Below are positions 32,560 through 36,915 of a stretch of 36,915 nt of DNA, piece after piece. A program made the position numbers and the translations under genes. Numbering within the stretch: the first letter of the stretch is position 1; each line of letters begins with the position of its first letter. Under the pieces are notes generated by a model. That model had not been told where the DNA came from, did not search any database, and saw only the letters and a program-made list of their open reading frames with translations. The stretch lies in NCBI GenBank assembly GCA_027366675.1, contig DAHXND010000112.1, forward strand, positions 1 to 36,915, read 5' to 3'. This DNA is from Acidimicrobiales bacterium. GTDB taxonomy: Bacteria; Actinomycetota; Acidimicrobiia; Acidimicrobiales; JAMCQF01.

Positions 32560-35500
32560 CTACTCGTCTTCGAAGCCCTGCTCGGTGAAGTGCAGGGTGC
32601 GGGCGTTCTCCGTGACCGTGCGGACGACCGCTTCGTCGAAGCCGTCAGCCGTATCGGCGGAGATCTCGACGGTGACCTCAACGGTGGCTGTGGAATCGGC
32701 CAGGTGCTGGACGACTTCCTGGACGACCCGGCCGAACTCGAGGCTGAGCCGCTCGGAGCGCAGCACGATGCTGCCGTGGAAGCGCCGTGGCTTCGATGGG
32801 CCAGCCGTCGCCGCTCCTACAGTGGTCGTTGGCGCCAGCATGGAGGTAGGCATGGCTCCTGTGGCGCCCCTCGCCGCGGCTTCGCCTGTGACCGCGGCCT
32901 CGCCCGTCGCCTGGTGATCAGCTCGCAGCTGCGCCATGGCCACCTCCGGCCGCACGAGCAAGGTGGACGGCGACGTGCCGCTCGACCCTCCAGGTCCGAC
33001 GACGAGGCCGACGTAGCGCCCGCTGGCACTGTCGTAGCCTTCGGCGAGCGCGAAGCCCTCTTCCGCCCACGCGAACCCGGCAGGGCCATCCTGGACGCTG
33101 CGCTGGAGAACCAAGCGGTCTCTCAGACGTGGCAGGTACGGATAACGAGCGAGCGCCTCCCACAGCGCACCGAGAGCGACGTGCCCGCTCTCCCACAGCG
33201 AGGCGAGCGGGCCGCTGAGCACGAGGGTGCGTAGCAGCGACGGGGCATAGACGATCGTGAGGTGACCCTTGTCGATGAGGCGTCGCGCCGTACGAGCGGC
33301 GAGGGCGCCCTGGCCTTCGATGCGGACCGGGTCGAAGACGATCGGCCCGGTCGGTTCGGGCTGCGTTGGCACGAGCGCCCAGGTGTAGGTGTCGGCCAGG
33401 CGGCGCTCGACGGTGCTCTCGGCCTCCTCCGCCTTGGTGGCCGCCTGGGCTGCCTGCTGGGCGCCGAGACCCAGTTCCTCGGACTCCGCGGCGATCGATC
33501 CCCAGGCGAGCGCCTCGGCCATCCCTTGCCGCAGGTCGTCGACCCGGCGGTGGTCCGCGGCGAGGAACACCACCATGTTGCGGAACAGCCGGGGTGCGCT
33601 GCCCCGGTGCTCGAGGATCTCTCTTGCCGCTCCGAGGGCGGGAGAGTCCTCGGTCTTCGCGACATGGGCCGCATGCGGTGGCAGCACGACGAGGCGGACC
33701 TGATCGTCGTCATCGACATCGGCTGAGGACTGCGGAGCGACGTGCACCCCGGCGAGCTCCCCCCGGTCACGCTGGCGGCGGATCCGCTCGCAGAGCGACG
33801 CGTCGACTTCGGCGATCCCGGTGGCCAGCCAGCGCTCCGCGCGGTCGCGGGCCATGCGGGCCACGCTCGGGCTGAGCCCGTACCAGTAGCGGTCGCGATC
33901 CACATAGAGGTAGGTGGCCTTATCCGAAAGGCGCGCGAGCGCGTCGGCGTAGGTCGCTACCGCCTCACCAGGCGCGGCACAGCCGAGACGCACCCGGGCT
34001 GCCTCGACACCGCGATGCGGCGAGTGCACCGTCGGCGCTGAGCCCAAGAACACCGCGCGGGCAACCTTGCACGTGGCGCCGTAGCGGCCGAGGTTCTGGT
34101 AGGTGGCATCGAGCTGGGAAGGAAGCGACGCGGCGCCATCGACGTCGGCGTCCATGACCGGCTTCCAGGAGTCCTCGAGGTTCCGGGCGAGCTCGGAGGC
34201 GACCGGAGCATCGTCCAGGGGGATAGTCCCGGGCACGATGAGCGGGGACTGGTCCCCGCCCCGCCACAGCGCGCCCACCACCTGGGCCATGAGCCGCAGC
34301 ACGCCCCGGGTGCGCTGGAAGCGTTCCAGGGTGGACCAGTCCTCGTAGAGCCGGTCGAACAATTCGGGGTGGATCGGGTACGCGGCACGCAGCCGTCGCT
34401 CGTAGGCGGCCTCGCGGCACTCAGCGGGGAACTCGGCGGCCTGGGACTGGTACAGCTTGGCGAAGGCCTGCGCCGTCGCGTCTCGATAGACGAGGTTCTC
34501 GGCGTCGATGGACCGGAACAGGCGGCGGCGGACGATCTCGAAGCCTTCCTCGGCCGAGGCTGGTCGCCAGGAGGACCCCACCCGCCCGATCACGCTTCGC
34601 AGCCGGCGCAGCGCTTCGGCGCCACCGGGCCCGCCGATCTCGACGCTCGAACCGCCGCTCCCCGGGGCGCCGGAGGAGGGATCGGTCGAGACCGAGGCCG
34701 GCAGGCTCACGACGAGGAGCGCCTGGTCGGTCGCCCGCGCCGCCTCGGTGAGCGCCTGGGCGAAGCTGACGTGCGCTTCGAAGCTGCCGCCGGCTAGACG
34801 CTCGTCTGTGGCATACAGCTGGCGGGCGTAGGCCACCCACTCGTCGACGAGGACCAGGCACGGCGCGCACGCCTGGAACAGCTCCGCCAGCGCGCCCCCG
34901 GGGCTCGTGCCGGTCCGGTCGGCTTCGGCGACGAGCTCGTAGCCGTCCTTGCCGGCGAGCTGCCACGCAAGCTCCCCCCACAGGGTCGCCACCTCGGTCC
35001 CGTCCGACTTGACCGACACCTGCCCGGGAGGGATCCAGCCGCCCACGAGCGCGGCCCGTCGCACCTCCGGGAAGGCGTCGGTCCCGGCAGCGCCGACCAG
35101 CTCTTGGACCTCCTCCGGCAGGTCGGCTAGCGCCACGCCTGAGCACAGGTGCCACAGAGCGATCAGCGTGTGGGTCTTGCCACCACCAAAGGTGGTCTGC
35201 AGGTCGACCACCGGCACGCCACCGGTTCCCGCCAGGCGCCTGGTGGCCTCGGAGAGCAGCTGACGAAGCCCCTCGGTCAGGTACGTGCGGCGGAAGAACT
35301 CGACCGGATCGGCGTACTCCGCCCTGCCAGATCCTGCTGCCACCTGGTGGAGATCGGCAGCGAACTCGGCCAGCTCGTAGCGGCCCTGCGCGACGTCGTC
35401 ATGGGGAACGATGACCTCGCGCCACGGGCGAAGCCCAGCCACCGCGCCGCTCGTCGCCGCCACCGGCGCGGCAGCCTTGCGAACGTCGGCCTCGTAGCGA

Positions 35501-35907
35501 AGTCGCATCAGCTCGGTCTTCGACCTGCCGACCGCCTCGGCTTCTTTCGCGTCGGCGGCAGCGAGCAGCCGCTCGATCGAATCGAGCGCCCGGTAGGTGT
35601 CGTCCGCGTTGAATGCATCGTTGTGGGCCCAGCGGTTCCGCACGTCACGCAGCTCGAAGACCAGGTTTCGGTCCGAGCGGGTGAGCCGGGTGCGAAACGC
35701 CGAGTCCCACGCCTCGGCCATCACCTTCAGCAGGAACGCCGGATCACGAAGCGACGCCAGCGCGGCGTTGCGCGGGCCGGAGTCGACGAAGCCCTCCAGC
35801 CAACCCTCACTGTGCACTGAAGCCATCTGGCGGTCGACGAACGGTGCGAGCCCCGTGGCCAGCACCTCGAAGGCCCGCCCGACGCGTTCGCGGTTACTGA
35901 CCGCCAT
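32560..35907 (-). CDS. Swt1-HEPN/DUF499 large ATPase, putative defence protein
   Basis: The 1115-residue product has an N-terminal Swt1-type HEPN domain (about 1-120) with an Arg90-x4-His95 motif (RNRWAH), the arrangement seen in HEPN ribonucleases. The DUF499 P-loop ATPase follows, with Walker A GGGKTH (241-246) and Walker B-like CLVLVDEW (350-357). A long C-terminal part of unknown fold includes an acidic DVDDDDQ stretch and a low-complexity region near 1000. DUF499 ATPases occur in defence islands, often beside DUF1156-type DNA methylases; none is in the window, but one could lie to the right. ATG 35907 overlaps the preceding HEPN-like fragment by 14 nt and has GAGAGG upstream. High G+C suggests transfer. 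Confidence 0.85.
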   Translation of the reverse strand: MAVSNRERVGRAFEVLATGLAPFVDRQMASVHSEGWLEGFVDSGPRNAALASLRDPAFLLKVMAEAWDSAFRTRLTRSDRNLVFELRDVRNRWAHNDAFNADDTYRALDSIERLLAAADAKEAEAVGRSKTELMRLRYEADVRKAAAPVAATSGAVAGLRPWREVIVPHDDVAQGRYELAEFAADLHQVAAGSGRAEYADPVEFFRRTYLTEGLRQLLSEATRRLAGTGGVPVVDLQTTFGGGKTHTLIALWHLCSGVALADLPEEVQELVGAAGTDAFPEVRRAALVGGWIPPGQVSVKSDGTEVATLWGELAWQLAGKDGYELVAEADRTGTSPGGALAELFQACAPCLVLVDEWVAYARQLYATDERLAGGSFEAHVSFAQALTEAARATDQALLVVSLPASVSTDPSSGAPGSGGSSVEIGGPGGAEALRRLRSVIGRVGSSWRPASAEEGFEIVRRRLFRSIDAENLVYRDATAQAFAKLYQSQAAEFPAECREAAYERRLRAAYPIHPELFDRLYEDWSTLERFQRTRGVLRLMAQVVGALWRGGDQSPLIVPGTIPLDDAPVASELARNLEDSWKPVMDADVDGAASLPSQLDATYQNLGRYGATCKVARAVFLGSAPTVHSPHRGVEAARVRLGCAAPGEAVATYADALARLSDKATYLYVDRDRYWYGLSPSVARMARDRAERWLATGIAEVDASLCERIRRQRDRGELAGVHVAPQSSADVDDDDQVRLVVLPPHAAHVAKTEDSPALGAAREILEHRGSAPRLFRNMVVFLAADHRRVDDLRQGMAEALAWGSIAAESEELGLGAQQAAQAATKAEEAESTVERRLADTYTWALVPTQPEPTGPIVFDPVRIEGQGALAARTARRLIDKGHLTIVYAPSLLRTLVLSGPLASLWESGHVALGALWEALARYPYLPRLRDRLVLQRSVQDGPAGFAWAEEGFALAEGYDSASGRYVGLVVGPGGSSGTSPSTLLVRPEVAMAQLRADHQATGEAAVTGEAAARGATGAMPTSMLAPTTTVGAATAGPSKPRRFHGSIVLRSERLSLEFGRVVQEVVQHLADSTATVEVTVEISADTADGFDEAVVRTVTENARTLHFTEQGFEDE

Positions 35908-36106
35908 CTGGTTCCTCTCCCCCCAGGGCGCGGTGCGCGAGTGCAGTAACCTGTTCGGCGAGCTCGACCGCTCGCGTGGCGTCAGTGGTTGTGGCCTCGT
36001 CTAGGTCCTCGGGATAGCGGCCCTCGATCGCCCAGCGGGTGAGCTCCTCCAAGTCCACCTCGAAGAGCAGGCGGGCTCGCTCCTCGCTCGGGTCGACCCT
36101 AGCCAT
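35894..36106 (-). CDS. N-terminally truncated HEPN-domain protein (70 residues)
   Basis: This short ORF matches only the C-terminal half of the HEPN family that partners MNT proteins (RWAIEGRYPEDLDEA..., then AVELAEQV helix). The N-terminal half, present in the other copy at 36585-36915 (VVEKALKATLI, KTHNL), is missing because MNT coding sequence occupies its place. ATG 36106 overlaps the MNT stop by 8 nt and has AGGGG 8 nt upstream, so it is probably still translated. Its end overlaps DUF499 by 14 nt. A frame open further upstream is MNT read out of phase. Confidence 0.65.
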   Translation of the reverse strand: MARVDPSEERARLLFEVDLEELTRWAIEGRYPEDLDEATTTDATRAVELAEQVTALAHRALGGEEPDGGQ

Positions 36107-36461
36107 GGACGGCGACCCCTTCACGAAGCGCCACACGCACGACACCGGGCGCCCGCGAGCGCCCGTCCAGCTCGGTCGCGTCGGTGACCACGAGGTCGAC
36201 CGGGACCGGCAGGTCACGAAGCGACCGCAGCATGGTGACCGCCGCGTCGTGGTGACGACCTTCGAGCTTCGATAGGACCACGAGCAGGTCGATGTCCGAC
36301 TCGCGCCCGTCATCTCCTCGGGCCACCGAACCGAAGAGCACGACGCGCAACGGGTCGAACCGCTCGACCAGCCGGGCCACGACGTCGGGCACCCATTCGG
36401 CCAGCGTCCGGCCGTCGTAGATGGCCTTGCCGTCTCGCACCTCGTAGGCGACCGAGCTCAT
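36099..36461 (-). CDS. Minimal nucleotidyltransferase (MNT-type antitoxin)
   Basis: The 120-residue product has a pol-beta-like nucleotidyltransferase fold with the GSVARGDDGRESDID motif: Gly44-Ser45, Asp56 and Asp58, plus the third acidic residue Asp89 (VDLVV). All catalytic residues are present. In HEPN-MNT pairs the MNT typically neutralises its HEPN partner by adding AMP to it. Here the HEPN that follows is truncated, and a fuller HEPN lies upstream. ATG 36461 overlaps the stop of the preceding small ORF as ATGA. It has the normal length for the family. Confidence 0.88.
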   Translation of the reverse strand: MSSVAYEVRDGKAIYDGRTLAEWVPDVVARLVERFDPLRVVLFGSVARGDDGRESDIDLLVVLSKLEGRHHDAAVTMLRSLRDLPVPVDLVVTDATELDGRSRAPGVVRVALREGVAVHG

Positions 36462-36598
36462 TGGCCAAGCTCCTGCTGGACCAGCGCTCGTGCTCGGGCA
36501 CTGTGCACGAGACGCATCTGTTGCTCGACGAAGGGGCCGAGACCCTCGGCGAGCACCTCGAAGGCCCGACCGACCCGCTCCCGGTTACTGACGGCCAC
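36458..36598 (-). CDS. 46-residue remnant of a second Swt1-HEPN/DUF499 N-terminus
   Basis: The frame from GTG 36598 encodes VAVSNRERVGRAFEVLAEGL and on to VHS. Of its first 33 residues 26 are identical to the N-terminus of the large DUF499 protein at 35907. It then diverges (ARARALVQQELGQ) and stops. GGAG lies 7 nt before the GTG, and the start overlaps the preceding HEPN stop by 14 nt, exactly as in the intact copy. The stop overlaps the MNT start (ATGA). It is either a degenerate gene or a small protein kept for coupling. Confidence 0.75.
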   Translation of the reverse strand: MAVSNRERVGRAFEVLAEGLGPFVEQQMRLVHSARARALVQQELGQ

Positions 36599-36915
36599 GT
36601 TCTGCTCCTAGCTCTCGTCGCACCTCGACCACGACCTGCTCGGCAAAGGCCGCCAGACTTTCTGCAAGCTCAGCGTTCGCCTCGGCGAGGTCATCCGCGT
36701 AGCGCCCGTCGACTGCCCACGGGTTGCACCACGCCAACAGCTGTCGGTCGAGCTCGACGAGGCGCCCCAGCCCGACGCACGAGTCGTGCAGGACAAGCAG
36801 GTTGTGGGTCTTCTGGAACGGCACGCCTGCGTCGATGAGCGTGGCTTTCAGGGCCTTCTCGACGACGAGATGGGAAAGAAAGCACACCATGCGACCGGGG
36901 GATTCGGGGTCCCGG
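36585..36915 (-). CDS. HEPN-domain protein, 5' end cut by window edge
   Basis: At least 109 residues are visible of a HEPN protein of the MNT-associated type: a PGRMVCFLSHLVVEKALKAT helix, KTHNLLVLHD, then WAVDGRYADDL and a final AEQVVVEVRREL helix. The frame is open through the right edge, so the true start lies outside; an internal ATG at 36890 is probably not the start. No classical Arg-x4-6-His is obvious in the visible part. It overlaps the DUF499 remnant by 14 nt. Its MNT partner could be the gene downstream or one beyond the edge. Confidence 0.78.
   Translation of the reverse strand, partial: RDPESPGRMVCFLSHLVVEKALKATLIDAGVPFQKTHNLLVLHDSCVGLGRLVELDRQLLAWCNPWAVDGRYADDLAEANAELAESLAAFAEQVVVEVRRELGAERGRQ

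Follow-up and report, generated by a model that had tools for sequence, protein, structure and literature searches.

The Hma system is built from the HmaA helicase, the HmaB methylase and the HmaC ATPase (PADLOC, PMC8565338), and has been renamed the Type-1 BREX-related (BR) system (PMC12839542). Among Type-1 BR systems the latter work counts 1370 taxa with a HEPN-DUF499 fusion, and it names HEPN and HEPN-MNT among the auxiliary effectors of BREX and BR systems. Fusion of a Swt1-HEPN domain to DUF499 is a known architecture, described for the Ava_2192-type ATPase, which is encoded in an operon with a helicase and a methylase (PMC3710099). For HEPN/MNT pairs, MntA adenylylates HepT in Class I, whose HEPN carries the RX4HXY motif, and Class II had no biochemical test as of that study (PMC7641770).

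The window (the whole stretch of DNA analysed here, 36,915 nucleotides) is an entire contig from an acidimicrobial actinobacterium, in an assembly of 234 contigs that is 85% complete. Its right end contains the 3′ portion of an anti-phage operon, Hma (Type-1 BREX-related). Its HmaC is a DUF499 AAA+ ATPase (PADLOC HmaC, E 9.1e-290; Pfam DUF499, E 5e-25) with a HEPN_Swt1 domain at residues 11-117 (E 8e-31); the RX4H motif RNRWAH at residues 90-95 indicates that the N-terminal Rx4-6H HEPN of HEPN-fused Type-1 BR systems is present. It thus shares both its domain fusion and its kind of operon with the Ava_2192-type proteins, but in the window another HEPN, of a separate type, lies embedded immediately upstream of it. 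HmaA and HmaB lie off the contig, and HmaB was not found in the window's own assembly with one protein query, but the tail of HmaB is present in a short reading frame described below; in L037, the closest relative with an intact operon, both match with E 0, so that all three L037 genes, like the window HmaC, match PADLOC models. What sets the window apart from the described Hma system is an MNT-HEPN pair placed between hmaB and hmaC and doubled, with a scar and a HEPN stub. The initial annotation had suspected a three-part defence system; we find instead a known operon, Hma, whose hmaB-hmaC gap carries an accessory MNT-HEPN pair.

Gene order and the 46-residue reading frame

The features of the right end of the window, all on the minus strand, are these:

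36585..36914, minus: HEPN-B, C-terminal 109 of about 139 residues; predicted foreign module of intact type; Pfam HEPN PF05168, E 1.6e-11
36458..36598, minus: 46-residue scar ORF, whole; HmaC head followed by HmaB tail
36500..36598, minus: HmaC head remnant, first 33 codons; 26/33 residues identical to the window HmaC; HEPN_Swt1 positions 1-32, E 4e-4
36458..36499, minus: remnant of the tail of HmaB (DUF1156 methylase), with VQQELGQ-stop as its end; continues the HmaC head in frame
36099..36461, minus: MNT-A, complete minimal nucleotidyltransferase; predicted resident module; Pfam NTP_transf_2, E 2e-11; GSX10DXD
35894..36106, minus: HEPN-A stub, 70 residues; aligned to the HEPN-A of L026, L034 and L036, with helix positions from the L036 model
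32560..35907, minus: HmaC, 1115 residues, intact; Swt1-HEPN domain fused to DUF499 AAA+ ATPase; PADLOC HmaC

This order of genes agrees with the initial annotation, as does the overlap of every join: 14 nt between HEPN-B and the 46-residue ORF, 4 nt between that ORF and MNT-A, 8 nt between MNT-A and the stub, and again 14 nt between the stub and hmaC. Both HEPN/hmaC joins also have the common start context GCnGTCAGTAACCG, and the 26 identities over the first 33 residues of the two DUF499 copies (78.8%) were recovered with E 2e-8 in the whole genome. The window carries a tandem of two diverged MNT-HEPN pairs, a putatively newer B and an older A. The contig ends inside HEPN-B; that MNT-B and hmaB precede it in this genome is therefore a prediction.

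The 46-residue ORF had been taken for a DUF499 N-terminal remnant. This holds for its first 33 residues, which are the HmaC head, but its last 13 or so are an HmaB C-terminus that had been missed: the tail, VQQELGQ-stop, corresponds to the HmaB end of another related locus, L123 (ASPAPVQQELGQ-stop), and the last 24 nt before the MNT-A start are identical to the end of L123 hmaB at 21 of 24 positions. A score of 21/24 was reached at one of 73,782 window positions, which is the place itself, and in none of 200,000 shuffles. The exact hmaC/hmaB breakpoint is uncertain within 36480-36499. As read from these alignments, the ORF is a fusion scar of two parents, hmaC head then hmaB tail; at the joint, therefore, the beginning of an hmaC leads into the final part of an hmaB. 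Such a joint is expected if the incoming module is placed upstream of the resident, or from out-of-register recombination between two Hma operons.

The two HEPN/DUF499 junctions had each been described as reduced to a complementary half; of the two HEPN genes only one is in fact reduced. HEPN-B has 97% amino acid identity, over the part available, to the intact 139-residue HEPN-B of L037, and we reject its reading as a half gene: its 5′ end is merely cut by the end of the contig. HEPN-A is indeed shortened, being 70 residues against 139 in relatives, but it has not lost exactly its head as had been supposed; the stub keeps its first codons, MA-VD, and resumes at EERARLLF, so that the 69 missing residues represent an internal in-frame deletion. 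In a model of L036 HEPN-A (pLDDT 88.6, seven sequences) long helices lie at 7-31, 37-58 and 110-136; the stub is without the first two, and keeps the conserved GRYPEDLDEA segment. From this model it appears unlikely that the stub folds as a HEPN, and it would be non-toxic. A 30-nt stretch of the GRYPEDLD region of HEPN-A recurs exactly on another contig of the genome (L002 1501-1530; G000 contig C186, 27740-27769), amid scrambled short repeats, and was rejected as a second copy of the locus.

MNT-A has the GSX10DXD motif (GSVARGDDGRESDID at residue 44) and is 92.5% identical to the MNT-A of L026. In this, and in the overlapping MNT-then-HEPN genes, the pairs resemble HepT/MntA, but the HEPN here is a PF05168 protein adjoining a PF01909 MNT, and RX4HXY is not present: at that place HEPN-A has RYPEDLD and HEPN-B has GRYADDL. 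The pairs therefore fall in Class II by the scheme of PMC7641770. They differ from HepT/MntA further in that one of the two has a truncated HEPN. HEPN-B would likely be a toxin held by the predicted MNT-B. An intact HEPN, restrained by its MNT, could provide a back-up suicide response when Hma fails.

Single pairs, other genes of the gap and a mirror-image locus

At least seven related loci have one MNT-HEPN pair directly before hmaC and, where upstream sequence exists, the pair directly follows hmaB (DUF1156 methylase). The intact single cassette, for which the initial annotation had proposed a search among relatives, is therefore real: in L037 (Acidiferrimicrobium), HmaA, HmaB (DUF1156), MNT, HEPN and HmaC stand intact in one run. 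The single pair lies between an hmaB tail and an hmaC head in L123, L125 and L142, and also in L126 and L035, while L034 and L038 have it upstream of hmaC on contigs that begin within or just before MNT. The pairs are of two types, A and B, with MNT identity of about 50% between types; L037 and L035 are B, and L034 is A.

Several loci show other arrangements. In L026 (G021:C8, 477-1617) an orphan MNT-A/HEPN-A pair is flanked by what is left of an hmaB tail and of an hmaC head, the latter with an early stop; here the remainder of Hma appears to have been lost and the pair retained. L119 (G224:C186) and L122 (G299:C9) have MNT-A homologues with no hmaC head or hmaB tail nearby; the neighbouring HEPN-A matches in part only or is missing, and a short HEPN-A-like piece (residues 32-52) lies elsewhere in each locus. 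In the wider HmaC set the gene directly upstream of hmaC is often a methylase and in some loci another small gene, with matches to PemK/MazF (L053), DUF4276 (L063), DUF5615 (L066, L104) and DUF433 (L102); L072 has a PF05168 HEPN in this place. These PemK/MazF, DUF4276, DUF5615 and DUF433 genes, found in other phyla, hint that the site 5′ of hmaC may be a hotspot for toxin-antitoxin and accessory genes.

One relative, L036, is a mirror image of the window. Its order is hmaB, MNT-A, full HEPN-A, scar ORF, MNT-B fused to a HEPN-B stub, and hmaC; the scar ORF consists of 12 residues of HmaC head and then ENALGFNALVTSW...QPELES, which is HmaB tail, and of HEPN-B the final 43 residues are left, in frame with MNT-B. 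Its breakpoints differ from those of the window, so the two are separate events, and a mirror image in a related bacterium suggests that MNT-HEPN pairs are exchanged as cassettes inside the operon. In the HmaC tree the window is placed beside L034, which has an A pair (99/98), and L036 falls with the B-pair loci L035 and L037 (100/99). In both loci, therefore, the truncated pair next to hmaC agrees in type with its HmaC lineage, and it is the intact pair upstream that is foreign. For the window, divergence from L037 is likewise discordant, with dS of 0.09 for HEPN-B and 0.76 for HmaC, and identity, at 90-100% up to that point, drops to about 65% immediately beyond hmaC codon 11.

These two tandem loci are the only ones known. 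The 395 genomes of the class that were drawn gave no further tandem candidates, and MNT-B matches there, besides the window and L026, were at most 56% identical; MNT relatives were absent from the plasmid records and viral contigs searched, so that no mobile carrier was found. In the literature searched we found no description of cassette exchange, or of tandem MNT-HEPN pairs, in Hma.

Proposed cassette exchange at the hmaB-hmaC junction

We propose, with a probability of roughly 0.8, that an MNT-HEPN cassette was exchanged at the hmaB-hmaC junction and that the resident HEPN was then lost in frame. The operon of the window would first have carried an A-type pair in this junction. A B-type pair would have arrived recently by horizontal recombination and been joined upstream of the resident A pair, leaving the 46-codon in-frame scar in which the HmaC head runs into the HmaB tail. 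The resident HEPN-A, now redundant, may then have lost its N-terminal helices through an in-frame deletion, with MNT-A and the overlapping translation chain into hmaC being retained. L036 would record the reciprocal event, B resident and A incoming. Five elements of this account can be taken as established at the level of sequence: the anatomy, both parents of the scar, the reciprocal locus, the in-frame joints and the discordance of tree and dS. That two related, diverged cassettes recombined had already been suggested by the initial annotation; the unit that it proposed, MNT-HEPN-DUF499 with simple deletion of a DUF499 body, gives way to one made of the MNT-HEPN pair with an hmaC head and an hmaB tail.

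An unlikely alternative is plain decay, in which the tandem would be neutral debris with no selection on the frame or on the second MNT. The truncation of HEPN-A fits this, and with only two tandem loci known the phase of the joints could be luck: all four rearrangement joints (two scars and two HEPN truncations, in the window and L036) are in frame, for which the chance is 1 in 81 if phase is random and the joints are independent. However, no cassette piece contains a frameshift or a stop, the overlaps are preserved, HmaC is intact and MNT-A has a pN/pS of 0.14-0.31, although the purifying selection seen in MNT-A and in the stub could date from before the deletion. Under cassette exchange, the frame would be kept by selection for the overlapping translation chain, that is, for translational coupling into hmaC.

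The short ORF and the HEPN stub might instead be functional small proteins, for instance ones that regulate the intact HEPN's operon or bind that HEPN as dominant-negative partners. The stub does retain GRYPEDLDEA and overlaps hmaC, and L036 has a similar C-terminal stub, but the two loci differ in the length of the stub and in their joints, the bundle is without its first two long helices and the scar ORF is not conserved elsewhere, so that we regard this as improbable. Very improbable is an assembly chimera, in which A-type and B-type strains were joined in silico: the window is one whole contig of a 234-contig metagenome assembly and ends in the cassette, but exact repeats in the locus reach 17 nt at most, making k-mer collapse unlikely, the scar joins unlike sequences, and L036, from an independent genome, has the reciprocal structure with a different breakpoint.

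The cassette exchange that we favour leads to a further suggestion, which we offer as a quite doubtful one: that the displaced MNT is kept since one of the operon's HEPNs remains its target, either the incoming one or the Swt1-HEPN fused to HmaC. The hmaB-hmaC gap would then be a site of exchange where residents are disarmed by in-frame HEPN truncation, and nucleotidyl transfer would control the Hma suicide response.

The novelty of the locus is modest: within a known defence operon, MNT-HEPN pairs appear to have been exchanged as cassettes on two occasions, in opposite directions, and there is no new three-part system. Its value is that toxin-antitoxin turnover within a defence operon can be followed with readable breakpoints. 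This raises the question of whether MNT-HEPN pairs cooperate with Hma or are only its passengers, and provides a testable model in which accessory suicide modules may be swapped while the core ATPase continues to be expressed.
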